The position numbers were made by a program, and so were the translations under genes. From contig OX485806.1 of NCBI GenBank assembly GCA_950295325.1, forward strand, positions 39,122,001 to 39,186,000: a DNA stretch of 64,000 bases. Direction: 5' to 3'. The stretch comes from Polytrichum commune (lineage: Eukaryota; Streptophyta; Polytrichopsida; Polytrichales; Polytrichaceae). Of the stretch, positions 1-22,279 are shown piece by piece. The notes beneath the pieces were generated by a model. It did not search any database. It was not told the origin of the DNA and was given only the letters and a program-made list of their open reading frames with translations. Numbering within the stretch: the first letter of the stretch is position 1; every line of letters begins with the position of its first letter.

Positions 1-554
1 CGCCGCGTCCTGAATCAGAATCTTGTTGCGTACAGAAAGTCCCGATTCCAACTCTCCGCAGCATCCTCAGCCAAACCTCACACCTTCAGTCACCAACTTT
101 AGGGTTGCAGAGCACCGTTCAAGACACCACATTGACACAATCTCTTACAGTTTCAAGTCGACGATACAAACGCCTATGATGTATACAAACCCTGCACCTG
201 TACGATCACATATATGCTGCCTGCTAAGTTAGCACTCAGATCGATCCCTTCACTTCCACTGCCGACAACTGGACCCTGGGGCCAGAAGCAAGCAAACTTG
301 GTTACACACAACGATATGCAGACCACTTTGTCGAACTAGCCTGGTAAGATCGGCGCAAGTGACCTTCTCAGAATCTCATCACTTGTGTTGTTCTTCTCTT
401 CCAGATGAGCCAGGCAAGTAATCAGGACTCTGTAACTGGTAAGTTGCAACACATTCTAGGAGTCGGAGACGGATACTATCTTCAGAATACCTAGATTAGT
501 AAAATGATGATGATGATGTGTAACTAATGAGCGAGATCTGAGGAATGGTTAATA

Positions 555-780
555 CAATGAACGGGGAGAGCCGACTGCTATTTACAGACAAACCGGTGGA
601 CTTTGAGAAATAACCGGTTGAAGTTCAAGACTTCAGGAAAACTATCTATCATTTTAGAGTAAATCTGTAGATTGTACCTGAATCAATGAATTAAAAACCG
701 GAAGATTTCAACATGGTACCAGTTGGACTTGGAATCACTAGGATCTTGACCGATTATGCCCCAAATTCTTCCGGGATACT
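555..780 (+). mobile_element. MITE family F1 copy (GATCGGGGA-type ends), inside R1 copy A
   Basis: About 225 bp matching the family seen at 1754-1979, with the shared inner motifs ACCGGTTGA, TTGAGAAATAACCGGTTG, CATTTTAGA and CACTAGGATCT in the same order. Its ends are more diverged than those of the 1754 copy. The same insertion is present at the equivalent place in copy B (about 7319-7495), so it predates the R1 duplication; the B version lost about 60 bp of its centre. Confidence 0.75.
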
Positions 781-1070
781 GCGTTCATAGTCGGTAGGTA
801 GGCAGGCAATAGGCATCTTGAGTGGGAAAGTCAAGCCTGAGGGCCACCACCTGATTTTCTAGTTTAGGATCTACCGATTCTTCCTTGATAAATCCTTCAG
901 AATTGAGGTGTACCGATCTCCCTCCCTGGCACTTTCCTCAGTGTGGCAGGAGACAAAGTCCACGTATTAACCGACTGTGACTGAACGACCGGAGAGAACC
1001 GAACGCTAGGCTACTCTAGTTACAGAGTAGGATGGACCAGTTGCGTTTGAGACATACACTCTAACCTCCC

Positions 1071-1110
1071 TAATATCACGCCTGTGGCAACTAAAGTGCA
1101 TGTGATATTA
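1071..1110. repeat. 40-bp imperfect hairpin motif, copy 1
   Basis: The motif starts with AATATCACG and ends with CGTGATATT (here TGTGATATT), so its 9-bp ends can pair around a loop reading GGCAACTAAAGTG. Five copies occur in the window: here, 2217-2255, 8421-8460, 10337-10374 and 29002-29040. In R1 copies A and B a pair of these motifs bounds an inner segment; the third R1 copy has only one. Confidence 0.8.
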
Positions 1111-1753
1111 ACCTCTAGTTTTCCACCGCCCAGTTTCCCTCACATTTGCCCAGAAAATGTGATCTCAATTTCAACGACCGTAGCTGAAGAACTAAAGTTT
1201 TTTTTGACAAATTCAACCATGTGGATGTTTGAGGGTTGGAGGTGTACTCACACTCCAAATTTTAACGTTGAAGTTTTGTTATGTAGGAGATTATAATGAG
1301 AATGTCAGTATTGGTCATGAAGGGAAAAAATTTAGAAATTAAACTAGGGTTGGTCTTTTTTTATCAAACCTCCACTCAAATTGTTTCCAAATGACGAAAT
1401 GTTATCCTTATTCAAAAGAGGGGCAATATACCTACTCAAATCAGCTCACAAATATTCAAACCATGATTTTGTAGTTCTTGGGGAAGCTTTGCAATTTGAG
1501 GCCGTGGTGCCACAACTATGCACCTTCCACATGAATTTACACCCACCAACACATGTCCAACTGAAATTTCCAATAATAGATGTTTAGGATATGTTGTGTT
1601 TCAATGTTATGTAAATTTTCAAAATCAATTGGGAATCATTTGCACATAGCAATAATATAGCTAGATAGATAGACACACATACACTACTTGAAAAAACATG
1701 TGTAGCATATGTTGCCCGTAAATCACAAAGGTGACAAATACCAAGTTTGGTCC

Positions 1754-1979
1754 AATGATCGGGGAGAACCGGCAGTTACTTACAAATGAACCGGTTGAGT
1801 TTGAGAAATAACTGGTTGAAGTTCAAGAATGTAGGAATGTTACCGATCATTTTAGAGGAATTTAAAGAATATACCCCAATTTATAAAAGAAAAAACTGGA
1901 GGATGTGAACATGTAACCAGTTGGACTTGCAAACACTAGGATCTCAACCGATTATGCCCAAAAATCTCCTCGATCATTG
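1754..1979 (+). mobile_element. MITE family F1, reference copy with target-site duplication
   Basis: The ends are inverted repeats (left AATGATCGGGGAGA, right complementary apart from one base). The insertion is proven by the empty site in R1 copy B near 10105: copy B reads straight through GTTTGGTCC, whereas here GTTTGGTCC occurs on both sides (1745-1753 and 1980-1988). An 8-9 bp duplication fits a non-autonomous Mutator-like or hAT element. No coding capacity is seen. Confidence 0.85.
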
Positions 1980-2216
1980 GTTTGGTCCATGGACCGGTTC
2001 CATTATAAATTAATTAAGAGCACACTCCCATATTTGAATTATTTAAAAATAGAACAAATATATTGAATCAAAATTATCCACATGGCAAAATATAGCATAC
2101 TTGAATATGAGCAAGAGGAATAGTTGAAACAATCAAGAAAACACCTAAATTAGTGTGAAATGGATCAAAACGAACTTCTCATGACTAGATTATGGTCGCA
2201 TAGGACATGAGAAGTG

Positions 2217-2255
2217 AATATCACGCCTGCTGCAACTAAAGTACACGTGATATTA
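2217..2255. repeat. 40-bp imperfect hairpin motif, copy 2
   Basis: Second motif of R1 copy A, direct repeat of the one at 1071-1110, with ends AATATCACG and CGTGATATT. The 1.1 kb between the two motifs is absent from the third R1 copy near 29.0 kb. Confidence 0.8.
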
Positions 2256-2559
2256 AAGAGGTACGTAGTGTTAAGTTCATGTATGCGCAATAATAAAGAA
2301 TTAGTGCAACATGTAACATAATGGAATAATGCAAACTCAACATTTCAATAATGACAATAATTACAATAATTACAATGATGACAATGTGATGCATACAAGC
2401 ATGTGGTTTGAATTTGTTGGTGGATTACTTTAATGTCAAAACTCCATGATATATGGGATGGAAATGTGACAATAAGGAAATAAATTTAAATTGAGCACAT
2501 TCGATCCTTAGAGTTTTGGGATATAAACGAAAAAATGACATTAATGAGGGTGATAATAT

Positions 2560-4820
2560 GGAGGTGTAGTGTTGTTTTTGGTTACAAACGAACCCATGGA
2601 AACAATCAGGGTACACTTAAAAGGTGACTTGTATATCATCTAGGTGTCTGAGATAAGTTTTCTTAAAAAAATACAAGGTTAGTTCACTTCCTTTCAGATT
2701 AGAATTGATAATTGGGTTAGGGATAATGGATAAAAAAATATTTAAAAACCTCTTTACATCAGTACATGCAATTATGATAGTCATTCATTTCACTCTAAAC
2801 TCCCAAGCAATAGTTTGATAGTGGATTCATATTAATGGGATCAAGTGTGGTGTGCAAGCATAGGCATAGCCATAGTCAATGGTCTTGCGTGAATAATTCA
2901 TTTTTGTCTCGTTACCAAAGCCATGGGCACTTGGTGTTGTCAATGATCTTATATTAATTAATTATTTTTTGAATATTTTGAAATGTCCATACAGTCATCC
3001 TCTCAGGATCTTCAGTCTCCTTCAATTTAAGTGCATTTTAGTTATGATGTCTGAGAATGGTCTCTTACATGGCTTTGATAAAATTAATTATGTTTTTTTT
3101 ATTATGACAATAGGTCACAATCATTTATGCGCGTCAACATATCCTCAACCAACTCATAAACGTATCTTATTTTGTTAAACATCATAATGACACACTTGTA
3201 GTTCTTAAAACAAGGAATTAACCGGTTACTTCTAGATTTCATTTTCTATTAGGCGGAAATTGAAGGCGGTTTCAAAAAAAATATAATCTATAGGTCCAAG
3301 CTATTGCAATTAGGATGACATTTCTTCATCATTTGGTAGTTTAATATATATTGATTATGTTTCAATAGATATGTAAACCAAAAGAAGAGATTCGTTAAAT
3401 TTGCTTTTTTATAAAGCAACTTTAAATGATGCGCTTGTACATATGAAGGATTAAATTGATTCATTTATCAATAAACCAAGTAATAGTGATTAATAAATAA
3501 TAAATAATAAATAATTAGTCCAATTGAAAAAATAAATTTAAATTTTAGCTAAATAAATAAAAATTTATAATGATAAAGGTCATTTTAGGATTTTTATAGG
3601 ATTGACTAAATTAAAGTGAAACTTCAAATAGTTGTGAAAGATGAAAATATAAAATATTTCTAAGACTCGAAGCGATTTTACGTCAAATTGATCAAACAAG
3701 TGGAGTGAATGACATAGTTGGTTTCCTCAATAATGCTAAATCTATTTTGGCAGGTTTTTTTTGTGATTACTAAGTCAAAAATAAATAAAATACTTAGATG
3801 AAAAAAATCGATGGTCACCAAGTTTTTGGAACCGAAATCTCCTGCAAAATGAAATGTGATGAAACAAAAGTAATTGAAAAGATTGAGCCCTCTCCTGCCG
3901 TGTAAAACAACTATATTTTACGAGTGTAAATTTTTTATTGGATCATCTCTCATATTTACTTATTTCACTCGTCTTTTCAAATTCTAGGAATTATTGAATT
4001 TCTAATTTGTTTCTTCAACTCCAACCATTTCCGACTTCAATCAACTTCACTTTTGAATGGAAAATCTGTTACTTATTATATTGGTCGTTTCGAATGATCG
4101 TATTTGTTAAGAGAGCATGAGGTTGTTCTCATTGTTTAATAAAATGGTTTTTTATAGTTTATTAAATTAATATTTTTATGTAAAGGTTGTAGTCTACTAT
4201 TTTTTCTTTGGTGATGAAGTATAATTATTTTTTATAAAATATGTCATTAATTTGTGATGATAATCCAAAAATGACAGCAAATTTCAAAAACATACTGCAT
4301 CTTGTTTCCAAGTTCAATTCTAATATTTCTTATATACCGAGATAAAATTGAAGTTTTATTTGAAAAAAACAGTAGTGTATGAGAAATCGATAACTTTTTG
4401 TAAAAGTTATAGACAAATCCATGAGACATTTTTATTTTGGTACTTATGATTTTATAACTTCTCCGGGGCTTGCTAAATTTTCCATTTACTACGAATTTCA
4501 TATTCGTAAGAAGATATTAAATTTATCTTTCTAGTCTACTTTTTTTTAATTCTAAAAATCAGAAAAACAATTATAAGCATTTCTGTGGTGCAGCTAATAA
4601 AATCTTCTCATCTTCATTTTTCTTTAAATATATATATGAAATTTAAAATATCATATTACTTTTAACATCATCTTGCATTCAATTTCATTAGAGAAAATTA
4701 CATGAAATGATCTAAGTTGTTTGTCCAACGGTAATTAAGCTTGTGTTGGGCTAATTAGACGTTTATGGGGACTAACTAGAACATTTTTACTCACAAACAC
4801 TTCCGAGTCTTAAAATTACC
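2560..4820. other. AT-rich gene-free interval
   Basis: No ORF here resembles a protein I know, and no inverted or direct repeat stands out. Base composition is strongly AT, unlike the GC-richer Hsp70-like gene that follows. Short ORFs at 2969-3178 and 4247-4501 look like chance. Confidence 0.6.
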
Positions 4821-4821
4821 A

Positions 4822-4884
4822 CTGGGTCGACATCCTCTGCATTATTCAGGATGATGAAGACGACCAACAACACGAAATCCGCAC
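4822..4884 (+). pseudogene. 63-bp HET-domain gene fragment, antisense to the Hsp70-like 3' end
   Basis: This matches the HET gene at 19914-19976 at about 54 of 63 positions. In the plus frame it encodes WVDILCIIQDDEDDQ, the counterpart of WVDALCIIQDDEDDQ in the HET domain. No HET homology is visible on either side. The last dozen codons and the stop (TGA, complement of 4846-4848) of the Hsp70-like ORF on the minus strand lie inside it. It is a gene scrap, probably left by a rearrangement or template switch. Confidence 0.9.
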
Positions 4885-6402
4885 GTTAATACTAAACTTG
4901 TTATTGCATTTAGGAACACCATCTACCCACTCTTTGAACTCGGGTTTATCATTGTCCTCCTCGAAGGGCCTAACACAAGGGAACCCATAAGTTTTCCTTG
5001 CAATTCTGGAAACAATGACATGAGGATCAAGTGCAAGGTCAAGTGCCAGGGCAACTGCACCCTGGCAAACTGCACTGCTAGGGTTACAAGGGCTGATGAT
5101 ATCGGAGACTCTGCCGGCGAACCTCTTTTTGATGCTGTCCATGAGATAATGGGAACCGGCAAACCCACCCACCACCACCACCATAACTTTCACTTTATCC
5201 TTCAACCTGACAAGCTGCTCATTGATAAGCTGCAGGTTCAGTTCAACCACAGGATCAAAAATCCTCTGCATATCTGCATAGGAAACCTCGAGATCATCAT
5301 AATTCTCCCTAAGTGGCCCACCCTTTTCCGTGTCGTATTTCTCCCAATCGGAGATCAGTCTGTGGGGGAGGTTGATGTCCATGGATTCATCCTCCGTGAA
5401 TGGGTGGCCAAAGCTCGGTTTCATCTCCTCCCAACTCTTGATTAGATTGGTGTAGACACCGGGGTTTTGCTTCATGCACTCCTTCAAGCAGGGTCCAATT
5501 GTTTCATGAAGGAAATCTACAAACCTAGCATCCACGTATGTGCCGCCACATAATGCTCCGGAGCTCTTTGTGATCTCTTTCACCCTGTAGCATTCCCCTG
5601 AGCTGATGACCTCTTGCACCACAATGTCGGCAGTTCCACCGCCGATGTCTGCCACCAGAAGCTTATCCCCGGCTCGGAGGTGGGTTTCGTTCATGGTTTT
5701 GTGGCAATGGAAAGAGGCAGCTTCTGGCTCCAGAACAATTACAAGTGGATGTGGACTGCCATCCACTCCGTCCACCAGCCCCGCGGCCACCATGAAGCTC
5801 TTCATTTTCTGCTTTGCCGAGTTATCCCAGATGGACGGCACCGTCACGCACCACTGGATGGCCTGCTTCGTCAACTGCTCTCCGTAATTCTGCTGCAGGG
5901 TTTTCAGAATCAATTTCCCCATCTCCCGTAGGTAATCCGTGATGACTTGCTCCACTTTCAAACCTTCCGGGAGGGCTGTGGCAGACAATTTCCCGGATTT
6001 GGGTGGCGCCAGATGCAACTTCACCCGGGTGACGTAATGCCCCAGAGTGGGTTTGATCGGGTCCTCCAAGCCCGCACGCGCCGCCGGCTTCTTGCTATTA
6101 ATTCGGTACCTGCGGACGGCTTGGAAATCCCTCTCAAACTCAGCACGAGCAGGGTACCCCCAAGACTTGAACGCCCAGGTCTTGGTCCCGGCACCGCCCT
6201 GCTCCTTGTAGTAACTGCTTGTGAGGGTTTTGCAATAGGGTTTCTCCCCTCCCCTCATATCATAATTGTGGTATGTGAATATGTCGTCGCGCTTCGTGAC
6301 ATGCGCATAGGCGAATCCAGAGAATGTGGTGCCGAAATCCAGACCGACCATTACTCTCGGCTCCGAAAGCACATCCGTCACATGGTGTCTCGACGAGCCC
6401 AT
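4846..6402 (-). CDS. HSPA12-like Hsp70 family protein, C-terminally truncated
   Basis: An actin-fold ATPase of the Hsp70 superfamily, nearest to the HSPA12-like group that is abundant in fungi and scattered in plants. From the Met at 6402 it has 518 residues. The ATP-binding motifs are in order: phosphate-1 VGLDFGTTFSGFAY (19-32), phosphate-2 ADIGGGTAD (about 251-259) and the adenosine motif VVVVGGFAG (ending near 416). No intron is needed. The ORF is open to an earlier ATG at 6651, adding 83 residues with a hydrophobic stretch; I prefer 6402 because family similarity starts just after it. The protein ends soon after WVDGVPKCNNKF, where relatives continue into the C-terminal domain, and the final residues come from antisense HET sequence. 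It may be a truncated gene or a recent pseudogene. Confidence 0.85.
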   Translation of the reverse strand: MGSSRHHVTDVLSEPRVMVGLDFGTTFSGFAYAHVTKRDDIFTYHNYDMRGGEKPYCKTLTSSYYKEQGGAGTKTWAFKSWGYPARAEFERDFQAVRRYRINSKKPAARAGLEDPIKPTLGHYVTRVKLHLAPPKSGKLSATALPEGLKVEQVITDYLREMGKLILKTLQQNYGEQLTKQAIQWCVTVPSIWDNSAKQKMKSFMVAAGLVDGVDGSPHPLVIVLEPEAASFHCHKTMNETHLRAGDKLLVADIGGGTADIVVQEVISSGECYRVKEITKSSGALCGGTYVDARFVDFLHETIGPCLKECMKQNPGVYTNLIKSWEEMKPSFGHPFTEDESMDINLPHRLISDWEKYDTEKGGPLRENYDDLEVSYADMQRIFDPVVELNLQLINEQLVRLKDKVKVMVVVVGGFAGSHYLMDSIKKRFAGRVSDIISPCNPSSAVCQGAVALALDLALDPHVIVSRIARKTYGFPCVRPFEEDNDKPEFKEWVDGVPKCNNKFSINVRISCCWSSSSS

Positions 6403-6964
6403 ATCTCTTGGTGCATTCTGAAATCTTAGACTCCGTGATAAGAGAGCTGGGGCACGGATGAATCTCCTGGATTCGGAGTAGGAAGCAAATGCAATTGCAG
6501 CAATTTCAAACAACAAACCTACGCAAATAAAACCGAATGGTAATAAGTATTTTGAAGTATCTGCTGGATGAGAGCAAGATATGAAGAAGACCGAGATTGC
6601 AGTGGTCTTGATCGGAACCCTAGGTGTAGTTTTCGTGGTTTTTTTTGCCAATGAGTCTGTTCATCTTTGAATAGTCATGATCACATAGACAGTCCATGCC
6701 AGAATCGATTTGCCGAATAGCAGTCGACATGGACTGTAACTTTTCTAAGCGGTCCTACTCAAAGAAGCGGATAGCTCAAGTGGCTCACGATAGCACCTGC
6801 TTCCCAAGAAAGCCTAGAAAACTGATCGGAAAACATTCTTCCAAATCTTGTCTCCCCTACTACACCTCCAAACGCAAAGGGTAAGGCAAAAAGGTGTCCC
6901 CATGTTGTTCGCAGAAACTTGACATACCTTGCTCAACTCCTCAACCGACGACAAACCTTAGGTC
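6403..6964. other. Upstream region of the Hsp70-like gene, up to repeat R1 copy B
   Basis: Holds the optional N-terminal extension (6403-6651) and the presumed promoter. A repeated word, GTCGACATGGACTGTAA / GACAGTCCATG, gives a small inverted repeat around 6690-6735. R1 copy B begins near 6965, about 300 bp upstream of the outer ATG. Confidence 0.5.
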
Positions 6965-7318
6965 GCCCGCCACGTCCTGAATCCGAATCTTGTTGCGTCC
7001 CGCAAGTCCCGATTCCAGCTCGCCGCAGCATCCTCAGCCAAACCTCACAACTTCAGACCATTTCATCGAACTGGCCTGGTAAGATCGGCGCAAGTGACCT
7101 TCTCAGAATCTTATCACTCTTGTTGTTCTTTTCTTTTAGAATGAGCCAGCTGGGGGCACCTCCCCATCCCCTCGCCAGGCAAGTAATCAGGACTCTGTAT
7201 CTTGTAAGTTGCAACACATTATAGGAGGCGGAGCCGCATACTATCTTCAAAACAGCTAGATTAGCAAAATGGCCATGATGGTGTGTAAGTAATGAGCGAC
7301 ATCCGAGGAATGGTCAAT

Positions 7319-7495
7319 ACAATGAACGGGGAGAACCGACTGCTAGTTACAGATGAACCGATTTGAGTTTGAGAAATAGCTGGTTAGAGACTTGAAGTTT
7401 AAGACTTCAGGAAGATGACTCATCATTTTAGATGACTTGGAATCACTAGGATCTTGACCGATCATGCCGGAAATTCTCCCGGGATACCGGGTTAA
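7319..7495 (+). mobile_element. MITE family F1, internally deleted copy in R1 copy B
   Basis: Orthologous to the copy at 555-780. The centre is missing: sequence jumps from CATTTTAGA directly to TGACTTGGAATCACTAGG, a loss of about 60 bp. Confidence 0.75.
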
Positions 7496-7625
7496 TAGTC
7501 GGTAAGCAGGCATTTGGCATCTTGTGTGGGAAAGTCAAGCCTGAGGGCCACCACCTGATTTTCTAGTTTAGGATCTACTGTTTCTTCCTTGATAAATGCT
7601 TCAGAATTGAGGTGTACCAATCTCC

Positions 7626-8262
7626 TATGTTCGGGGAAAACCGACGGCCCAATGGATTTCCCCTCATGGCCGGTTCAAATTTCCAACCATCGAATGACTG
7701 TAATTTCAATCCTCCGGCAATTAGCCGATGGATCATAAAATGTCCCGGAAATGTAGCCGATTCCTCTTGTGAGTTACTGGATTTCAGCCAGAAGCATCGA
7801 GAGCGCGATTTGTCTGGGGCATCTGATGATGCACTTGAGGAAGTACCCTCAACCTTAAACTTTTTGAATTATGCAACCTTTCCATGACCAAATCCAATTG
7901 CTTCTATGAAGAATTGGGGGACCCTTGGCCTTCAAGCGGTGAAGGCATTGCTAGGTTCAATTCCTGCCAAGGATATTAACTCTTCAAATTTAAAGTTTTG
8001 AACATGCCTTTCTTTTCACTTATTCAAGCTTTTGTACTAAAAAATAATTTCTAATAAGTTTTCATACATTTTTTAAACAATTAGTGCCGATATGAATTCC
8101 ATTTAATCGGATATTGGCCAATGAAAAAATGAAAATATAGGCAATTGGCCGATTGATTTTACAAAAGACCGGCTCTTGCCGATGTAAATTGGAAAAAATC
8201 TGACCCTTCGTAGCAACTACCGGCAATTAGCCACTAAGGCTTTAAAAACTTCCCGAACTCTG
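7626..8262. mobile_element. Insertion of about 640 bp in R1 copy B with short inverted ends
   Basis: Copy A has a single CCGATCTCC at this point; copy B has CCAATCTCC (7617-7625) and CCGATCTCC (8263-8271) with this insert between, a near-perfect 9-bp target duplication. Just inside are inverted ends GTTCGGGGAA and CTTCCCGAAC. The interior repeats the words GGCAATTAGCC and GGCAATTGGCC. No protein is recognised. A Mutator-like MITE is the best fit to a 9-bp duplication. Confidence 0.7.
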
Positions 8263-8420
8263 CCGATCTCCCTCCCTTGCACTTTCCTCAGTGTGGCAGA
8301 GGACAAAGTCCATGTATTCACCCACTGTGACTCAATGACCGGAGAGAACCGAATGCTAGGCTACTCTAGTTACAGAGTAGGATGGACCAGTTGCCTTTGC
8401 GACATACACTCTAACCTCCC

Positions 8421-8460
8421 TAATATCACGCCTGTGGGAACTAAAGTGCACGTGATATCA
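8421..8460. repeat. 40-bp imperfect hairpin motif, copy 3
   Basis: First motif of R1 copy B, with ends AATATCACG and CGTGATATC, equivalent to the copy at 1071-1110. Confidence 0.8.
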
Positions 8461-9008
8461 ATCCCTAACTTCCCACGCCCAATTTCCCTCACATTTGCCT
8501 GGAAAATATGACTTCAATATCAACAACCGTAGCCGAAGAACTATAGTTTTTTTGACAAATCCAACCATGTGGATGTTCACAAGTTAGAGGTGCCTACCCA
8601 AAATCCGAATTTAAACATTGAAGTTTTGTTATGTAGAAGATTATAATAGGAATGTCAATAGTGGTCTTGAGGAGCAAAAGTTTTGAATTTAAACTAGGGT
8701 TGGTTTTTTTATCAAACCTCCACTCAAATCATCTCCAAATGACAAAATGTTGTCCTCATTTAAAAGAGGGATAGTATACCTACTCAAATCAACTCATAAT
8801 AAATCTTGAAACCATTATTTTGTGGTTTTTTTGGATGCTTGGAATTTGAGGCAGCAGTGCCACAACTACGCACCTTCCATGTGGATTTACACCCACAAAC
8901 ACATGTCCAACTAAAAAAATCCAACATTAAATGTTTAGGATATGTTGCGTTTCAATGTCATGCAAATTATCAAATCAATTGGGAATCATTTGCACATAGC
9001 AATAAAAT

Positions 9009-9040
<32 letters not shown>

Positions 9041-9041
<1 letters not shown>

Positions 9042-9998
9042 TTGGGCATTTCTTGAGAGAAGCTAAGCTTACTTTCAAGCATAGTTCTTTTTTCAAATAA
9101 CATCCTCTTAGCAAGAGGCCATACCATTCTTCCATATATCTATGTATCTATCAAAACCAAGGAGGGTGGGTGAGACCGTGGGATCATTCCCCCATCCCAT
9201 TGCAATACAAATGTTAAAACATAACACTTTTAGAGCTTCTTACAAAGATTTTTGTTACACATAAAACCTTGGAGTATTCCATAATACTAAGGTTTTCCAA
9301 TGTAAGCCCTATCAAAGTCTCCTTACAACTTAGCTCCAGTAAATCAAATGTAAACTTGTAACACCAATCATATGCTCAATAACTTGCAATGTAGAATAAA
9401 ATTGGTCATTGCATATGTTTTGAGTAACCTTCATCTATACACACTATTTTGCAATCCGATGGTATACAAAACCTAATGTAGCCGTCATATTTGTGAAGGG
9501 TCTGCCTCACTTGTGCCCATGCCACCAACCAAATCCACGGAGAGGGTTAGTAACGTACACGAGGTGAATTACAGCAGAACCCAATTGTTATCTATGTCAC
9601 ACAAACTTATACAGCATAATCATACATTTGGTATCCCCATCATACATAATACTCAGTACTTTCAATGAGTATTTTACCTGTTCTTTAGCCATTTGCTTCC
9701 TTTGAAGTTCAAAGCTTGAAGTCAGTCACTTCCACTTCCTACAAACTCACGTCACGTTTACCCTAATCCCAAAAGTTACTAAGTGTAAACTGCTAATGTT
9801 GTTTACACTTGGAAAGGAAGTACTGAGGATGGCTTCCTCTTATTATACGATTAGGTAAACTTTTATGACCGTAGATGCAAGTTCTGGATCTACGGCTGAG
9901 CCTTTTTTAACCTCCCTTTGCTGGACCCCTAGGGTGGAACCTTACATAGGGTCTTTATTCAAAGTGTTATAGTCTTTTAATGGCATGCCAAGAACTAA
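9041..9998. mobile_element. Insertion of about 960 bp in R1 copy B, unclassified
   Basis: Absent from copy A. It is flanked on both sides by TATAGAGAGAGAG tracts (9021-9040 and from 9999), which may be a target duplication or expanded microsatellite. Inside there is no long ORF and no clear terminal inverted repeat. A solo LTR or short non-autonomous retroelement is possible, but I see no primer-binding or polypurine evidence. Confidence 0.6.
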
Positions 9999-10336
9999 GT
10001 ATAGAGAGAGAGAGAGAGAGAGAATTTATTAAAAAAACTAACAAATAAAAACATGTCTAAGATATGTTGCCCCTAAACCACAAAGGTGACAAATGCCAAG
10101 TTTGGTCCATGGACCGGTTCTATTATGAACCAATTGAGAGCACAATCCTATGTTTGAATTAATTCAAAAATAGATAAATATATTGAATCAAAATTATCCA
10201 CATGGCAAAATATAGCACACTTGAACATGAACAAAAGGAGTAGTTGAAACAATCAAGAAACCATCTGAATTAGTGTCAAATGGGTCAAAACAAACTTCTC
10301 ATGACTAGATTATGGTCGCATAGGACATTAGAAGTT

Positions 10337-10374
10337 AATATCACGCATGTGGCAACTAAAGTGCACGTGATATT
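10337..10374. repeat. 40-bp imperfect hairpin motif, copy 4
   Basis: Second motif of R1 copy B, with ends AATATCACG and CGTGATATT, equivalent to the copy at 2217-2255. Confidence 0.8.
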
Positions 10375-10689
10375 AAAGAGGTATGTAGTGTTAAATTCAT
10401 GGATGCACGATATTAGAGAATTAATGCAACATGTAACATTATGGAATAATGCAAACTCTACATTTCAATAATGGCAATAATTACAATGATGACAATAGTT
10501 ACAATGATGACAATGTGATGCATGCAAGCGTGTGGTTTGAATTCTTTGGTGGATTACTTTAATGTCGAAACTCTGTGATATATGAAAGGGAAATGTGACA
10601 ACAAAGGTGGAGATTTAAATTGAGCAAATTTGTTCCCTAGTGTTTTGGGATATAAGAGAAGGAGTGACATTAATGAGGATGATGGACTG

Positions 10690-11940
10690 CATGTTCAAAA
10701 TATGATAAATCATTATAGACTTAATTGTCATCATAATTGGGGGGAGTTGCATGATCATTTAATAAGCACAAGAAACCTCACTTTGATAGTGATGAAGATA
10801 TTCACATGAGCTCCAAAAAGTATGAGGAAAGTGGCTATGGCCTTGTAACAGTTTGAGTTTGTAAATCATCTTATGCTAATCATGTGTTTCATATCCTAGG
10901 AGAAGTGGACTCTTTGAAATAAGAGACCATGTAACCCTACTCTTCCCAAGTAACCATTTTTCAGTTGATGAATGAGTTCTTCCCTATATTAACCCCACCC
11001 AACTCATTCATTTACAATCAAATTATCTATAAACATCAAGCCAACATGGATACCTCCCATAGACACATGACCCATGCAATTTTGAGATGATTACTATGTG
11101 TTAAAAAATGTCAAAGTGGGGAAGTGGTCATGTTTTTGTTGCATTGGGAGCTTATGTGAGGGGGTTGACTCCAGTAAATACTTGCCACTCCAATGTAAAA
11201 TATTTTATGATGTCCGGGTAGAAAGAGCCTTTGTGCTTACATCAAGTGTTTATTTTAAATTTTGGACACTTTTCGATCTTTAAGGAATCCTTGCATATAT
11301 TATGTAGTTATAAATATGGGACAATCTACATACTCCAAATGCGCGTTGGCTAGCCTATTGTGGTTTGCACATTTTGGCATGAGAATTTGTGAAGGTGCTC
11401 AATTGATTTCCATCTCAATAAATCTTAGTTGTCATGTAGTGGATCACACAAGCATTTCACTCATTTTTCAGGTGGAACTGATTGGTGAAGGGTGTTTTTT
11501 GGGGGATAAAGCATGGCATTTTCTTGTGCATCACTTCCTTCAATTATTATAATCCAACATGGTTCCCAAGGGTTACTTCTGCCCATTTTTTCTCTTGAAA
11601 CAGCTCATCTCTCATGTTTCAAGAATCATCCTCCAAATACATCCCATTTTAGTCTCAAAACTTATCTACAAAAATTCCACAACCATAGTGAAATGCACTC
11701 AAAACAACCCTTTCATAGGTTTAGGAAGTTAGGGTTAAGACCCATTTACTAGAAGCGTGTTATTGAATTTATTTATTTTCTCTTTATGCAACCACTTCTC
11801 ATAGGGCAATGGGTCAACAATTAAAGAGATTGTGGGCTAGATAGATAGGAAATAGATGGAGGGAGGAACTCATCTCATACGCTTCCAAATTGTATGTGAT
11901 AATTTTCTATTGCCATGTGCCACATGTCAAGTTGGTTTGG
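10690..11940. other. Gene-free interval
   Basis: Short ORFs at 11098-11752 overlap in different frames and match nothing I know. No splice-linked coding structure and no repeat were seen. Confidence 0.5.
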
Positions 11941-11944
11941 AAAA

Positions 11945-12420
11945 CTCACTATTTAAAATCACATGTGTTATACATGCTTTTAATATTAATTGATATTAAA
12001 ATATTTTTCAATTTTGATTTGACACCATAATTAACATTAAAGACCACAACATTTAAACATAGTCTAAGTAATTTGAGATGAATTGTTGGTGGCAACAAAT
12101 CAATAGGGGGGAGGGGGGAGAGAGCTATCGCAAGCAAGCGTATCTCTCATTCATCCAACATAAAAGTTATGAAATAGCATGTGGTCTAAATTTATTATTT
12201 TTAATTGGTTTGACACCGTGATCAGCTTCAAAGCCCCGAATTAGTCTAGTCTGAGTCATTTGAGATGAATCATTCACAAACCTAAGTTATAAGGAGTCAA
12301 GTTCTTATATTGGATGGATAAGAGGCACACTCGTATGTGATAATTCCCTCTCTCACCGATAGGGGGTCAAGTTTTTAAATTTTGGAAGGATGAAAGATAT
12401 GCTCATATTGTGCAATAGTT
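11945..12420. repeat. Two diverged tandem units, with a third dispersed copy at about 54230-54430
   Basis: Units near 11990-12180 and 12195-12420 share TTGATTTGACACC/TTGGTTTGACACC, a run through AGTCATTTGAGATGAAT, and TATGTGATAATTCCCTCTC-like ends. The same series appears at 54230-54430 (AAGTCATTTGAGATGAATC, GATAATATCCTCTCTCC). The class is unknown. Confidence 0.6.
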
Positions 12421-12542
12421 CCCTTTGACCATGACACACACTCTCAATTCCATGATCATGGACCTTGAACACTAGCAACTTCACATGAATCTTCTCTGAA
12501 TCTTCTAGACCAAATCTCACTATAAAGATGGACCATGTCCAT

Positions 12543-12698
12543 CATAACATTACTCAATGTGCAGTTCTCATTTCTTGGGCCTTTAGAATGTAGCAATGGG
12601 ATTCCAAAAAAGTTGCACAAGGAGACACAACTTTAGACTAAACTCCCAACATTCCACTTGTTATATCACGAGGGATCCCGTCACTAAGTAATGTTATG
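12543..12698. mobile_element. MITE family F2 copy (CATAACATTACT ends)
   Basis: The left end CATAACATTACTCAATGTG is mirrored by the right end AAGTAATGTTATG. Another copy of the same family lies at 15238-15381, and a relative is nested at 39902-40061. About 155 bp, no coding capacity. Confidence 0.7.
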
Positions 12699-13098
12699 AT
12701 ACATAATATTACTCCGTTGTGATCATCAATCATGTGGGCCCAAGAAATCTAAATTTTCCCCTTTCTTGAATAATGTGGTGTAATGCTTAAGAATTTTACA
12801 ACTTTCAGGTTCGAATATGAAAAGATAGTTGTGAGTTTAGCCTAGACATGACGTTATTCATATCATGAAGAATATTCCATGGAATATTGTCAGTCCCGCA
12901 CAACATTGTTATGGATGACAATCACCAAGAAATTAGGAGTCATCTCATGGTCCAAAAAAGTTCAGATTTAATGATATATCATCCTACAATCGCTAGGATG
13001 TCATCACATGTGGGAACTTAGGGATGTAATTAAAAGTAAAATATACGGGCATAGTTGAGTAATGTTATGTGAGAATGCCATCTTGCATGTTATAGTAA

Positions 13099-13622
13099 GG
13101 GCCTGTTTAGACTTGGGGCCAAGGCCATTGGGAACGAAGGCCAATATGTCCCATGTGGCATGCAAATGGGCCCCCAAGCCCATTAATAAGAAAGTAACCT
13201 AACTCCATTCATTGCTTTCATGTGTAAACCTATTTAAGTGGGGTTGGGGCCATTTGGAGGCTGCAATTATGAGAGGCTTATCCACGTACCAACGTACATG
13301 AACTATTCTATGGATAATCATTAAAGTATAATAAATTTAGAAATTCTCCCCTCCTATTCAATGCTCAAAGAATAAACTACTACAAGCAAATAAAAGCTCT
13401 GACAATGGCCTCAACTAGAGGGAAAGAGTCCACAAGGTTGGGAGCTCTCTTTTCCAAGGCTTGAGGCCATTGTCATGATGAATAAAATAATTTATTTGTT
13501 AATTGGCCCCAACTCATGGTGTAAACTTGAAGAGGCGAGTCCCAACCTCTCTATCAATGAGAGGAGTGGATTTCTTGCACCCAACCCATTTTTGAGCCCT
13601 GACTCCAAGTCTAAACCTGCCT
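13099..13622. mobile_element. PIF/Harbinger-type (Tourist-like) MITE, 524 bp
   Basis: The ends GGGCCTGTTTAGACTTGG and, reversed, AGGCAGGTTTAGACTTGG match at 15 of 18 positions. A TAA flanks both sides (13096-13098 and 13623-13625). A 3-bp TWA target duplication with G-rich ends is the PIF/Harbinger signature. No transposase is present. Confidence 0.8.
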
Positions 13623-13672
13623 TAACTCCACGCATCTCTAGATAGGTCACTAGTTTCATTGGAAGTGTGATA

Positions 13673-14863
13673 CAGTCTAACCTTGATAATGTCACCCTTG
13701 TTAATGGGACACCTTGATACTGTCACCTAAAAGTTTGAAACCGATTTTCTTAGTGTAAAACTCCCTCGTTATTATCCCTATCACCCTTGTTAATGTCACT
13801 ATTTTTTTCCAAAATCCGTAGTGTAAATGTGATAATATCAAATATGGATGGATTGTATGTGATGGTTGGATGGACATATTGTAGTAGCCAAAAGGGTCAT
13901 GAGCCACCCCTGTGATAAATGCAATGTTATTCAAAGGGTCATGAGCCGCCTCTGTGCACCAACCCTGAACGGTGCTGTCTATACACGGCACTCAAAGGTG
14001 TTGTCTTTGACGGCGCTGCCAAGACTTCTTGGCCTCTATGCACCCCACCTTCCGTCACATGTGTTCACCTATGTGTCTTTGAGGGTTTCAGCTTGTGTGA
14101 AGTAATTTAGGATGTTAAGTTCTACGGTTTAGCTGAGCTGGTACAGAGTAGTGTCGACTTAAGCTAAATTAGTTCAATTGGTTTGCAATGTAGAAATCTC
14201 AAGATATGTGGCATGGTCTTCACTGTTTCTATAGTCAATAGTCGCATAGGAGAATCTAGTAAGATCATAAGTGTTAGCCGCTCATCCTAAGTGGGCATTC
14301 AATTAGGAACAATCTTCTAGATTAGTTAGTCAAGCTCATAAGTAGAAACAATCTTCTAGGTAGGTTAGTCAAGCTCATAAGTAGAAACAGTCTTCTAGGT
14401 AGGTTAGTCAAGCTCATAAGTAGAAACAGTCTCCTAGGTAGGTTAGTCAAGCTCATGGTCGAGCTCACTTGTATATAATGAACCATTGTTCATTTGGAAT
14501 TTAAATGCACACTTTCTATCATAGGCTTGTGTTTCTTCATGCAGTGCAGGTGTTCTTCGTTGTGTTGTTGTTGCTACATTGGAAGCTAGTGATTGGCTGA
14601 TCTCAATGACACATTGTGATGTGCTCATGTTGTTATTCACAATTTTGAATTATATTTTACATTCAAAAACATTGAAGTCTTGTGTTTGTTTTTTTTTTTT
14701 TTTTTTTTACATTGTAATTTCATTTTGATTTTCTACCTTTTTTTTTTGATAATATCACATTATGCACAAATCTTCAAAATGTGACATTATCAAATATGTC
14801 ACACCTTGTTTATATCACACTTTATGGTGAAACGGATGGTGTGATATTATCAAGGTTAGACTG
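13673..14863. mobile_element. Tigger/pogo-like (Tc1-mariner superfamily) non-autonomous element, copy 1
   Basis: Begins CAGTCTAACCTTGATAATG and ends with the inverse (ATTATCAAGGTTAGACTG), flanked by TA on both sides (13671-13672, 14864-14865). About 200 bp at the left end and 270 bp at the right end match the element at 31130-32447 in opposite orientation. The middle differs: it contains no transposase remnant and includes a 39-bp tandem repeat. The terminal sequence resembles those of pogo-like plant elements such as Emigrant/Lemi1. Confidence 0.85.
14305..14457. repeat. 39-bp tandem repeat, about four units
   Basis: The word AAGCTCAT recurs at 14332, 14371, 14410 and 14449, an exact 39-bp period. 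Each unit carries AGTAGAAACA and TTCTAGGTAGGTTAGTC with few differences. It lies inside the Tigger-like element copy 1. Confidence 0.9.
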
Positions 14864-14901
14864 TAGTGGCTTCAGTGCAAAGGCAACAGTCTTAGGAATG
14901 C

Positions 14902-15434
14902 CACACTAAATATTGTATTTAGTGTCATATGGTATTTAATGTCACTGTGGTAACTATTCTAAAGACACTTCTTATGATTAAGTCTATAAAATTTGTCATA
15001 GATGATTGAAATTCATGCCAATGATCAAAACAAAGTTTGGTATATTCTACAACCTGACATTTTTGTAGTGAAATATTAAGATGGATGATTGTAATTTTGA
15101 TGAAAAATCCACTTAGTAAGTGATAGTCATTGCAACATTGTTTATCTATAAGACCCAAAAACACTCACAAGGAGCGAAATATAATGTTAGGTTTACATTT
15201 AATGTTGGTGGCATTACATAGATGGTCTACAATTAGTCATAACATTACTCTTAATGTGCGTTCAGTGCGCGTGGAATATAACACTCGGATGCTTGGAAAA
15301 TTGTGCAAGGAGACTCAAAATTTAGCCGAGCTCCCACCATTTGTCATATTCCGAGGGACCACATCGTTGACTAATGTTATGGTATTGAGGAGGACAAATA
15401 GAATTTGTGACACTAAATACATTAGTTAGTGTAG
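14902..15434. mobile_element. MITE family F3 copy interrupted by an F2 MITE
   Basis: The ends read CACACTAAATATTGTATTTAG and, inverted, the TACACTAACTAATGTATTTAG type, as in the cleaner family copy at 16661-16890. The interior is split by the F2 element at 15238-15381. Confidence 0.65.
15238..15381. mobile_element. MITE family F2, nested copy
   Basis: The ends CATAACATTACTCTTAATG and CTAATGTTATG are inverted repeats matching the copy at 12543-12698; inner words GTGCAAGGAGAC and GAGGGA(C/T)C are also shared. Confidence 0.7.
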
Positions 15435-15570
15435 TCTCACTGGTCTCTACTCCATGCCACAAGGCTCAATGTTGGCTAGCTCCCTAGCACCCTTGAAGAT
15501 TTGGGAAATTATGACACCGGAGTTTCCTCCCTATGACTTAGATATATCATGCATTTTTAGTACCTTGTGT

Positions 15571-15795
15571 CCAATGTCCCGGGAGAATTTTGGGCATAAT
15601 TGGTTGAGATTCTAGTGTTTCCAAGTCCAACCGGTTACATGTTGACATCTTTTGGATTCTCTTTATTACATTAAAGTATATTCTTTAAATTCCTCTAAAA
15701 TGATCATAAATTTTCCTGAAGCCTTGAACTTCAACCGGTTATTTTTCAAACTCAACGGTTGAATGGAAATTGAACGGCATGCAACCGCTGCCCCC
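15571..15795 (-). mobile_element. MITE family F1, reverse-oriented diverged copy
   Basis: Read on the minus strand it matches 1754-1979: CTAGTGTTTCCAAGTCCAACC, CCTCTAAAATGATCA, CTTGAACTTCAACCGG and the start CCGGGAGAATTTTGGG are all present in family order. The ends are degraded and no target duplication is recognisable. Confidence 0.7.
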
Positions 15796-15799
15796 AAAA

Positions 15800-16650
15800 G
15801 CCATGCCTAGAGTTCTAGTTGTTGTCGGAGTTGCTCTTACATGTTTCCTTGTATTGCAAGGTTGAACAATGCCTAGTTGTCTCCACATATATTGTTACAT
15901 AAACCTAACCGTATACTATTTGAGGCACTTTGTAATAGAAACACATCGTATACATATTGTATGACATATCAATCATGATGCACAAAATGATCATTGCAAA
16001 CATGGCTTTAGGTTGGATAAGAGAGGTCATACAAAAATTTATGGAATTTTTTTTTGTGATCTTGTGGACATGGATACCATACCATGAAAATGCTCAAAAT
16101 ATGTAGCGAAATTGGTTGAAGCCTCGAGTAAAATTGGTTGTCTATGTATGTAGTGAACTTGGTTGATGATTTTAGTGATTCTCATTGAAACTAAGGATTT
16201 TGACTTTACACATGGACCAATCTCCTTGATTTGATGTTAATCCACATACATGACATGGACTAGACTAATGAGAGGAAACTTGCCGTTCCCATGGCTTGTT
16301 ATCCGCCTACTCAATTTATTTATTGGACATAATTGATCAACTCATGAACATAATAGGAGAGTGATGGATGACATCACGTATCCATGATGACAAATTATGA
16401 AGAATTATGTTATGATCAGTTAGATCAAGCTTTCCATACTTTCTTTGAGGAAAAGTGGCTATTGTGAGTGATTGTCATCATGTACTTTAAGATTTGAAAC
16501 TTTAAAAGAAAAAAAAGACACACACACATATCAAAGTTATCGAAGAATGTTTTATTTACCATTCTGTAACTTACGGTTTTATGAAGAAATTGTTTGAAAA
16601 TTTTATTATATAGTAAACTTCCAAACTATTTAACATATCAAATACGATAT
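15800..16650. other. Gene-free interval
   Basis: AT-rich sequence with no convincing ORF. A (CA)5 run lies near 16520. Confidence 0.5.
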
Positions 16651-16660
16651 ATAGCTCCAA

Positions 16661-16890
16661 GTACTACACTAAATAAGATATTTAGTGTCACTTACCATTT
16701 GAAATTACCCAATGCTAAATCTATTTATTGTATATCTCATATTTTTACCAACAAATGTGAAATTGGAAGTTTGGACATTATAGAACATTAACAACTTTAC
16801 TTGGTAAGAAATTCCATCAACAGTAAAAATATATTGCACTGTGTAAATCCAAATAGTAAGTGATACTAAATATGATATTTAGTGTAGTAC
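16661..16890. mobile_element. MITE family F3 with long inverted ends
   Basis: The first 35 bp (beginning GTACTACACTAAATAAGAT) recur inverted at the right end (ATCATATTTAG type, finishing AGTGTAGTAC), with only a few mismatches. 230 bp, no coding capacity. Related ends occur at 14902, 40750, 42082 and 55044. Confidence 0.8.
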
Positions 16891-16899
16891 TGTATGGCA

Positions 16900-19143
16900 G
16901 AACGTTCTGCTCCATAATTACTGATGGCGGAATAGAGTTTCCACCTCGGATTCAAGAGGAGTTATTCAATGCTGGAATGACACGTGGCAAAACGCAGTGA
17001 TCTCCCTTCACGGTACACATCGACAAGAGGCGGTATCACTGCAGAGACTTCCACGTGCCCATTCTTTGCTTGCCACTCTCAAATCGTTCTTCCGATTTCT
17101 GGCGATCCTCCTCCAGCACACCTCCCATAGGCAATCCCCACGTCAAGAGTCTTTCATCCATTAGTCTGCGCGTCCGATTTGGCGCAGAATCGAGGTAGGG
17201 AGACCCTGAGGAGGAAGCTGGCATCTTCAACTCAAGCAACGACCATGTGTTGGCAGAGGCGGATTATACTGTAGTTATCTTCTGATTGCTGAGTGCGAGA
17301 AGATTCTAAGAGAGATTCTAGATTTCTCCCTTGTACTTTGGTAGAGGTAGAGGAACCTGGATTGTGGACTAACTTGAACTTGGTGTCACAGGGTAACTGC
17401 ATGTACAGGAAGAATTGCTGTTCAAGGGTTTAGGGTTTGGGTTTAGGATTCTTGGTTGAAGGCTGCACTAGGTTTTTGTACAGGCAAATTTTCGAACAAT
17501 TGCAATGTTTGGTTTGACCATTTTCTTTAAGTCAATATAAGCAAGTTCAGGTCTTGGAGACCTGGGAGAATTCCCAGTTAGGCTGAACCATTCGTGAGGA
17601 AGACGCGCAAGTATAATAGAGAGATTTTTTTCTGGCAAGGTACAACCGGTGACTAGATTTTGTTCCTGAAAATTGAGTTCAGTCTTTGCTAAACCTGTCA
17701 ATAGAGTACTGTTGTCTGCTTGTTTAATTTGTTGTTTTCAGAAGATTAGAGAAGAAGGTTACAGATTCAGAGTTGAAGGATTGATTACTGGGTATCATAG
17801 CATCTATCGGAAAGCCCGCGGCTTTCCTCCGATCTCTGAAGGAACTGCTATTACCCGGGACTTCTTCAAGTAAGGTCTTCCTCACCTATCCACAAAAGTC
17901 TTAAAGTTTAAATTATAAGCTTCTTCTACGAAAGTTCAGTATGGATGTGGTCACATTTCAATCCGAATGTAAGTGTAATGTATTCATTCAAATTTTTACT
18001 TCTCCCCTGCCTTCCTTTACTAGTTACGAATTTGATGAGAAATTTGGGTGATTGTCGTCGTCTGTTCTTAGTTGTTTACACCAAAGATAGGATACTGAGC
18101 TCTAGGGTTTGAAACTGTAAGTGATGCACTTGTAGTTGGGTTACTCTTCTTAGAGTGGACATTCCATCAATCACTGTAATTTTCTCTCTCTTAATGATCG
18201 GTTTTTCTGGAGCAAAGTTGCATACTCTCCCACCCACAGAGCCCAAATGTTTATTGCTCATTGATTATTGAGTGCTCAAAAACCTCGAAAGCCGGTTATT
18301 GAGAGAATCATTTTACAGTGACCATAAGAATTCCTCTTAGAGAAGCCATCAGCTTTGCACTTTCTAACCTAAAATAGAGAGGTTGTTCCCTCATTTCATC
18401 TTTACAATGAGAAAGGGCAGCCATGGCAGTTCTCCTGTAACATAATAAATTTGTTTTAGCAGTTGCGAGTGCCACTCAAGCAGCCCATGATACGGATGAT
18501 CTCTGTCTCTCTGCCTCTAGAGCCAAAATTTTCCATCGACCAGCTCTTAATCTTCTCAGAACTTTGAAGATTCGGGTGCTTGGTGCGATTTCCTTTGGCC
18601 ATCAGTGCATTTGTTTCAGTCACTAAGAAATGAGTAGCTAGCTAAGCTTGGGATCATTTTATGCAGTCGTCTCACTATTATGCTTACACTTGTGAACCTG
18701 AAGAAAGTGCTTTTGTGCAAATTTAGGGCCGAGGGTTAGAGTTCAAGGTCCTCGGGTACTATTGTGTTGTTGCTAGTGTGTTAGGTCTGGTTTCAAGGAG
18801 CTTTCTTTTGGCATTTTTCTTGGATCTTCTTCAACTTGTGCACAGAAGTATGAATTTCGTTGACATGAAGCATCCGACATTTACAAAGTGGACGCTTGGC
18901 TTTGAACTATGCGTGATTGAAAGTGCGTTTTTTCTCAAGCAGTGCTGATGGACTTGTTACCCATCAGCAAGGATTTCATGGTGGAAATTGCATTCGTTGC
19001 AGCAGGAATCGAACGCCTCACCAAACCTGCAGGTCGATCAGATTATCCATATCTGAAATTTTGGCCGAGTTTGCTGTATACTGAAATCGGAGGTAATGAC
19101 AATTCAGTAGAAGCATACATTTGCAGTCCTACAAGTGGATTAC
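16900..19143. promoter_or_regulatory. Upstream region of the HET gene, probable promoter and leader
   Basis: GC content rises from about 16930 to 17260. A telomere-like word series, GGGTTTAGGGTTTGGGTTTAG, occupies about 17426-17448; such telo-box sequences are common in plant promoters and leaders. A good donor (TCAAGTAAGG near 17870) and acceptors before the ATG (TTTGCAG near 19125) make a spliced 5' leader possible. The ORFs at 17673-17873 and 18942-19151 resemble no known protein. Confidence 0.4.
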
Positions 19144-21291: not shown

Positions 21292-22275
21292 CAGAATTAG
21301 GGTTTCAGTGGATTTTTTGGACTTTTCCTCCAGTACCAGGTCAAGTCACCCTTTCTCAATCTGGAGCTTGAGAGCGTAAAGACCACTCACCGTCTACCTG
21401 CATTCACTATCTACTTCCCCTCTACTTATGGGAAAGGCTGAATTCCTGAAGGCGAAACCAAAGTGGGCATTAATGATTTTGCACTAGTGGAGTTGGAATT
21501 TCAGTGGAACCATTGGGACATTTCCTCGGGCATCAGATCAAGTCATCCTTTCTCAAAATGGACCTGACAAAGTAAAGAACACTCACAACCTCCTTACCTA
21601 CATTCGCAATCTACTTACATCCCCTCTACGTATGGGAAACGCTGAATTCTTGAAGGTGAAACCAAAGTGGGCTTCAATGTTTCTGCACTAGTGGATTTTA
21701 GCGGATCCACTGGCATCAAATTGAGTCACCCTTCCGCAACATGGACCATGACATAGTAAACAACACTCACAACCTCCTTACCTATATTCACAATCTACTT
21801 ACTTTACCTCAACTTATGGGAAAGGTTGAATTCCTGAAGGCTAAACTAAAGTGGGCTTCAATGATTCTGCACTAGTGGATTTCAGTGGATTTACTGGCAT
21901 CAAATCGAGTCGCCCTTTCTCAACATGGACCGTGACATAGTAAACAACACTCACAACCTCCTTATCTACATTCACAATCTGCATACTTCACCTCTACTTA
22001 TGGGAAAGGCTGAATTCCTGAAGGCAAAACCAAAATGGGCATTAATGATTTTACACTATTGGAGTTGGGGATGCAGTGGATTCATTGGGACATTTCCTCC
22101 GACATCAGACCAAGTCACCCTTTCTCAACATGGACCTTGACAAAGTAAAGAACAAGCACAACCTCCTTACCTATATTCACAATCTACTCACTTGACCTCT
22201 ACTTATGGGAAAGGATGAACTCTTGAAGGCAAATTCAAAGTGGAGTTTGGTGGTTCTGCAGTAGTGGAATTAGGG
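21235..22275 (+). repeat. Tandem array, about six units of 184-205 bp, starting inside the HET 3' end
   Basis: The unit landmark GAATTCYTGAAGG occurs at 21244, 21440, 21644, 21828 and 22012, with a variant at 22217. Each unit also carries CACTCACAACCTCCTTACCT-like and AAGTCACCCTTTCTCAA-like words. The first unit encodes the HET C-terminus (KAEFLKADPNW); later ones still encode KAEFLKAKPKW-like peptides but are not joined to the gene. Related fragments lie at 28070-28190 and perhaps 31010-31075. Confidence 0.88.
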
Positions 22276-22279
22276 TGAG

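Follow-up and report, generated by a model that had tools for sequence, protein, structure and literature searches.

Partial and chimeric genes produced by tandem duplication are described for Drosophila yakuba and Drosophila simulans in the available parts of three papers (PMC4503668, PMC5460883, PMC6776367). A truncated HET domain with a suggested defence role is reported for P. patens according to a passage of PMC11228847, the original work being that of Sun et al. (2020, doi 10.1111/nph.16776). Literature searches for a moss with a HET domain and Hsp70, and for the Polytrichum genome, retrieved no paper, and PMC12454661 mentions neither heterokaryon nor Hsp70.

A stretch of 64 000 nucleotides of the Polytrichum commune genome (GCA_950295325.1, contig OX485806.1, positions 39 122 001 to 39 186 000), hereafter the window, was analysed. 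An Hsp70-like gene ends there within a short antisense fragment of a HET gene. The fragment is, with high confidence, the scar of a direct tandem duplication that ran from the Hsp70-like gene into the HET domain. Such a duplication is an ordinary event and belongs to a known class of genome accident. The coordinates of the features are collected in Table 1, in which negative positions are window coordinates extended leftwards.

Table 1. Features of the tandem units, of their seam and of the two genes that it joins (A and B, left and right units)
Feature	Position	Strand	Remarks
Unit A, right part	1..4883		same-order blocks with unit B; terminates at the seam
Unit B	4882..19975		collinear with unit A
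Hsp70-like block	A -2133..-345 / B 4878..6677	+	97.0% ungapped
Block	A -276..89 / B 6676..7056	+	in chain order; 94.3% ungapped
Block	A 319..658 / B 7054..7432	+	86.2% ungapped
Block	A 726..921 / B 7434..7625	+	92.2% ungapped
Block	A 913..1673 / B 8263..9026	+	87.2% ungapped
Block	A 1692..1762 / B 10047..10117	+	in chain order; 87.3% ungapped
Block	A 1980..2554 / B 10100..10683	+	87.5% ungapped
Short element in unit A	1763..1979		direct repeat GTTTGGTCC(A) on both flanks; unit B with the single, empty site
AT-rich interspersed repeat, unit A	2565..4816	+	GC 0.279
HET remnant of unit A	4817..4883	+	57/67 identical to 19909-19975; antisense to the Hsp70-like gene
Seam between the units	4882..4883		HET left, Hsp70-like right; 2-bp overlap (CA)
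Hsp70-like copy B	4846..6651	-	open frame from TTG, 601 aa; counted from the ATG common with copy A, 518 aa
A/B-identical tract	5461..6218	-	758 bp, copies A and B
B-only segment	7626..8262		near-identical 9-bp flanks CCAATCTCC / CCGATCTCC
Intact HET gene, 715 aa	19144..21291	+	HET domain residues 201-349; PF06985 E 5.7e-31

The HET fragment and its source

The 63 bp at 4822-4884 had been predicted to match the HET gene at 19914-19976 with about 86% identity. This was confirmed, since 54 of the 63 bases were identical in an ungapped comparison, against 33/63 at the runner-up place on either strand of the window. When the HET gene was compared with window 1-6000 by blastn, the match covered 70 bp (4814-4883 / 19906-19975, 84%, E 5e-15). 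The original prediction had also asked whether the match was better than chance, and it is: alignment of 4786-4890 with the HET coding sequence gave a local score of 252, and dinucleotide shuffles (n = 1000) reached at most 120. The left limit of the fragment was set at 4817 because the bases up to 4816 belong to a repeat family. Base 4884, a mismatch with HET, was assigned to the Hsp70-like side. The fragment covers about residues 256-277 of the 715 in the HET gene and does not hold the full PF06985 domain. Past 4883/19975, agreement with HET drops to 6 of 30 bases.

Six HET loci besides the fragment were found in the genome search, the window gene included. Translated in the HET frame, the fragment gave 20 residues with 85% identity to the window HET gene (E 3e-11), and the five other loci matched it at 50-71% over 12-20 residues (E 2e-4 to 5e-7). 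At the DNA level its score was 238 with the window gene, whereas the other five loci scored 71-110 (plus strand). These loci were ruled out as the source by their weaker DNA and protein matches, and the fragment most likely derives from the HET gene still present to the right of the seam. More HET remains were sought left of the fragment and none was found: the comparison with 18501-19913 scored 201, a value matched by 97 of 100 shuffles. A 79-base DNA query against the genome matched only itself and missed the HET gene, so misses of this kind weigh little.

The PF06985 profile matched the window HET gene along the whole model (108.3 bits, model 1-146 of 146), and no NCBIfam match was obtained for the protein. 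The HET stop is followed by a tandem array with periods of 184 and 204 bp (21238-22276); five further diverged copies (63-82%) have the final 54 bp of the HET coding region as their start. Upstream, 17069-17560 showed a 67% inverted match, among 40 of 111 candidates scored, to C4:39111207-39111683. Some 27 kb separate this place from the stretch, on whose left it lies, past the Hsp70-like/kinase frame described below, and the match is perhaps another local rearrangement. A palindromic short element occupies 16660-16891; it has a very large number of genome relatives, the main matches reaching 84-88% (40 of 3181 candidates scored). Three other window frames were scanned with profiles: one carried a beta-ketoacyl synthase piece, one gave no match and the third showed a likeness to Mg transporters below the cut-off. 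No Rfam match was found in window 1-24000 and no tRNA across the window.

The truncated and the full-length Hsp70-like copies

A whole-genome search with the Hsp70-like gene of the window (copy B) detected a 96% identical copy (copy A) at C4:39119890-39121628, just left of the window. The frame of copy A (L018 4562-6487, minus strand) has 641 aa, or 604 aa from the ATG common with copy B, and runs 101 residues beyond the point where copy B departs from the family. Three paralogue loci, L014, L016 and L017, align through to the end of its C-terminus. Paralogues with a full C-terminus, for which the original prediction had advised a search, were thus available in copy A and in these three loci. 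Taken together, the full-length copy A and the paralogue C-termini mean that copy B is truncated and that the 63 bp did not originally belong to it.

Residues 591-601 of copy B (11 residues) and its TGA stop at 4846-4848 are read from antisense HET. The frame had been said to stop just where family homology ends; the stop does lie inside antisense HET, but the TGA stands 35 bp past the seam. The same triplet stands in the HET gene at 19938-19940, and the stop of copy B therefore probably existed from the start. The predicted truncation of the protein, and its coincidence with the antisense HET piece, were borne out, and the truncation is explained by the duplication seam. Pfam HSP70 (PF00012) matched copy B with E 1.5e-9 and 37.1 bits (cut-off 20.6) over model positions 112-370 of 599, that is in the nucleotide-binding region, and copy A with 41.6 bits. 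The C-terminal region that follows in the paralogues is absent from copy B, where 101 residues of copy A are missing. NCBIfam gave eight DnaK/HscA-type matches for the Hsp70-like protein, every one under its cut-off, and a PDB search gave a single weak match, DnaK. The first 83 residues of the copy B frame may be non-coding, because copy A has a stop or a frame break upstream of the common ATG.

About 13 Hsp70-like loci were found in the genome search, several of them clustered (C1:12.58-12.62 Mb, C3:56.93 Mb, C3:52.96 Mb). One neighbour outside the window (L015 4-2994, minus strand; C4 about 39114260-39117250) is a single open frame, 997 aa long or longer. This older tandem relative matches the Hsp70-like protein at 51% over residues 93-543 of the latter. 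Its C-terminal part holds a protein kinase domain (PF00069, E 4.7e-47), its Pfam HSP70 match falls short of 0.001, and an Hsp70-like/kinase fusion is possible.

The tandem units, their seam and later changes

Unit A starts outside the window, at about C4:39119871 (L018 4871). The chain of blocks shared by units A and B continues, in the same order, with 4814-4883 and HET 19906-19975 as its next link. The HET piece (54/62, 87.1%) falls inside the 86.2-94.3% range of the other non-gene blocks, its 62-bp length leaving a wide error on this identity, and the sub-blocks 913-1108 and 1980-2216 stand above it (93.4% and 90.6%). The agreement is fair, not tight. Off the chain, four shorter matches (e.g. 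1753-1862 / 7320-7438) were found in repeats. Sequence 913-1098 was met at A and B only (40 of 1623 candidates scored), the remainder of 913-1673 being an interspersed repeat in both. The same holds for 1980-2216 (40 of 2779 candidates scored), with an interspersed repeat in the remainder of 1980-2554, and 6676-7311 too was met at A and B only (40 of 2404 candidates scored). The interspersed repeats occupy the same places in the two units. From 2554/10683 to the HET piece, no A-B likeness was detected by blastn. A local alignment of 2565-4816 with 10684-19908 under stricter scores and a simpler shuffle reached a score of 32, and 8 of 40 shuffles were as good. Under lenient scores, with alignments that ran through the whole piece, it reached 684 against a shuffled mean of 682 and a maximum of 814.

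The matches to copy A's own sequence and to that of the HET gene both stop at the seam. The right unit end joins the left unit end there, HET 19975 meeting the Hsp70-like gene at 4882-4883. The breakpoint in HET falls in codon 278, inside the domain. The outer genes are whole across the breakpoints: copy A is open through its C-terminus and the HET gene is open over its 715 aa. Homology at the junction is slight, with an overlap of 2 bp between flanking sequences that differ, as viewed on breakpoints that have since diverged. Recombination between repeats was considered for the seam and rejected, no common repeat being seen at this 2-bp overlap. Insertion of the HET piece into a complete Hsp70-like gene was rejected as well: the 3' part of copy A that copy B lacks was not found in the window (best E 0.24).

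The short element at 1763-1979 entered unit A after the duplication. The AT-rich repeat that abuts the HET remnant had main genome matches of 71-80% in its left part (40 of 751 candidates scored) and matches of 64-71% in its right part (40 of 86 candidates scored). At its left edge, three other copies (L020, L026 and L029) start at 2565-2567. On the right, L026 and L027 stay similar to each other beyond the equivalent of 4816, and L028 less closely; the repeat of unit A is therefore cut there, against HET. Both parts were found in the same order at L026, one of four further places read, and they may be one element or two adjoining. This is most simply read as an insertion and a subsequent deletion, in which the end of the repeat was lost together with the HET 5' part.

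Probable origin and fate of the seam

The ancestor would have carried a single Hsp70-like gene on the minus strand and, to its right, a single HET gene on the plus strand. A unit from inside the Hsp70-like 3' end to inside the HET domain (codon 278) would have been copied in tandem through end joining that relied on hardly any homology (2 bp). Copy A at the left and the HET gene at the right, as the outer genes, would have stayed whole. At the inner seam, HET cut at its 3' side would have been joined to copy B cut at its 3' end, and copy B would have lost 101 residues and gained 11, with a ready-made stop, from antisense HET. Unit A would later have received the repeat beside the HET remnant and lost the HET 5' part, with 67 bp left. 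Gene conversion would have preserved identity with copy A in the middle of copy B, the 3' part of copy B being left to drift. In favour of a duplication are the blocks that run collinearly, on one strand, from the Hsp70-like gene as far as 2554/10683, with the HET piece after them. Against it, the 67 bp are the only bridge across the final 9 kb of unit B, and the block identities are uneven. The past neighbouring HET copy proposed in the original prediction is supported, but that reading lacked a single event that also truncated the Hsp70-like gene. The HET copy most likely came from the same duplication that caused this truncation.

The probability of 758 identical bp at 13% divergence is about 1e-46. 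Gene conversion between copies A and B is likely for this tract, because it is identical while the non-gene blocks differ by 6-14%. Differences of this size in the non-gene blocks also make it unlikely that the tandem is a haplotype artefact of the assembly. Over 503 codons, dN was 0.024 and dS 0.037 between the copies (0.026 and 0.031 by a second method), values that indicate weak constraint at most. The 26 differing residues were polarised, with L014 entered as two frames and L015 used only to about residue 454: 14 had changed in copy B, 3 in copy A and 9 were undecided. The difference between 14 and 3, the 9 undecided residues being excluded, had p = 0.013. Copy B is probably decaying with its frame still open, because 14 of the 17 polarised amino-acid changes fall there.

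Templated fillers of tens of bases occur at end-joining seams. The duplication might accordingly have fallen short of HET, the 67 bp being a filler copied from HET during repair, and the lack of any other HET sequence detected in unit A fits this precedent. Such an origin is nevertheless unlikely, since the orientation, position and order of the fragment match the predicted HET breakpoint, and its left edge is the cut edge of the repeat, a later change. A filler would need an extra step. For an unrelated, older HET fragment, beside which the Hsp70-like copy arrived, it speaks that six HET loci besides the fragment, the window gene included, make dispersed copies thinkable. It was judged very improbable: none of the five other loci comes near the fit of the neighbouring HET gene, and the collinearity of units A and B extends outside the gene too. 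That the 63 bp belong natively to the Hsp70-like gene, or match HET by chance, has a probability close to nil. Other paralogue matches to the copy B protein do end near residues 587-593, but they stop where the family sequence of copy B itself stops, whereas the alignment of copy A with L014, L016 and L017 goes on to copy A's end, and the HET match stands well above its runner-up. The native origin that the original prediction had named among its refuting conditions was itself refuted, within this genome, by copy A, which lies 7 kb to the left and has 101 other residues at this place.

Once the fragment is taken as the scar of a tandem duplication, it may be asked whether the seam does something, either because the chimeric protein works or because an antisense-HET transcript damps the HET gene. 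The frame of copy B is open over 601 codons, and the best 21-nt window against HET has 2 mismatches. Exact runs with HET reach no more than 12 bp, however, and copy B took most of the polarised changes, the undecided residues being set aside. The open frame is moreover a weak sign of selection, because the central tract looks gene-converted. A functional seam is thus distinctly improbable, and it is slightly less probable still that the seam made a working new gene with an antisense-HET transcript that tunes the neighbouring HET gene. If it did, a working seam gene would couple two families, one of which is known in fungi for self/non-self recognition.

With the tandem duplication, the 63-bp antisense scrap and the truncated protein are traced to a single structural event, of which the neighbouring chromosome still keeps a legible record. 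Annotators should take the Hsp70-like frame of the window as a product of the seam rather than a naturally short member of its family. If the proposed history is true, the Hsp70-like and HET genes were already neighbours before the duplication.

As in the Drosophila cases, to the extent covered by the available parts of those papers, the copies are in tandem and the seam cuts genes, which yields partial or chimeric genes. Unlike in those cases, the genes face each other here, so that the new 3' end is antisense, and the duplication is old and partly eroded. Like the P. patens report, as described in PMC11228847, the locus places a HET-domain gene in a plant genome. Unlike the truncated domain described there, the HET gene of P. 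commune has 715 aa and a full Pfam domain, and it is accompanied by one seam remnant.
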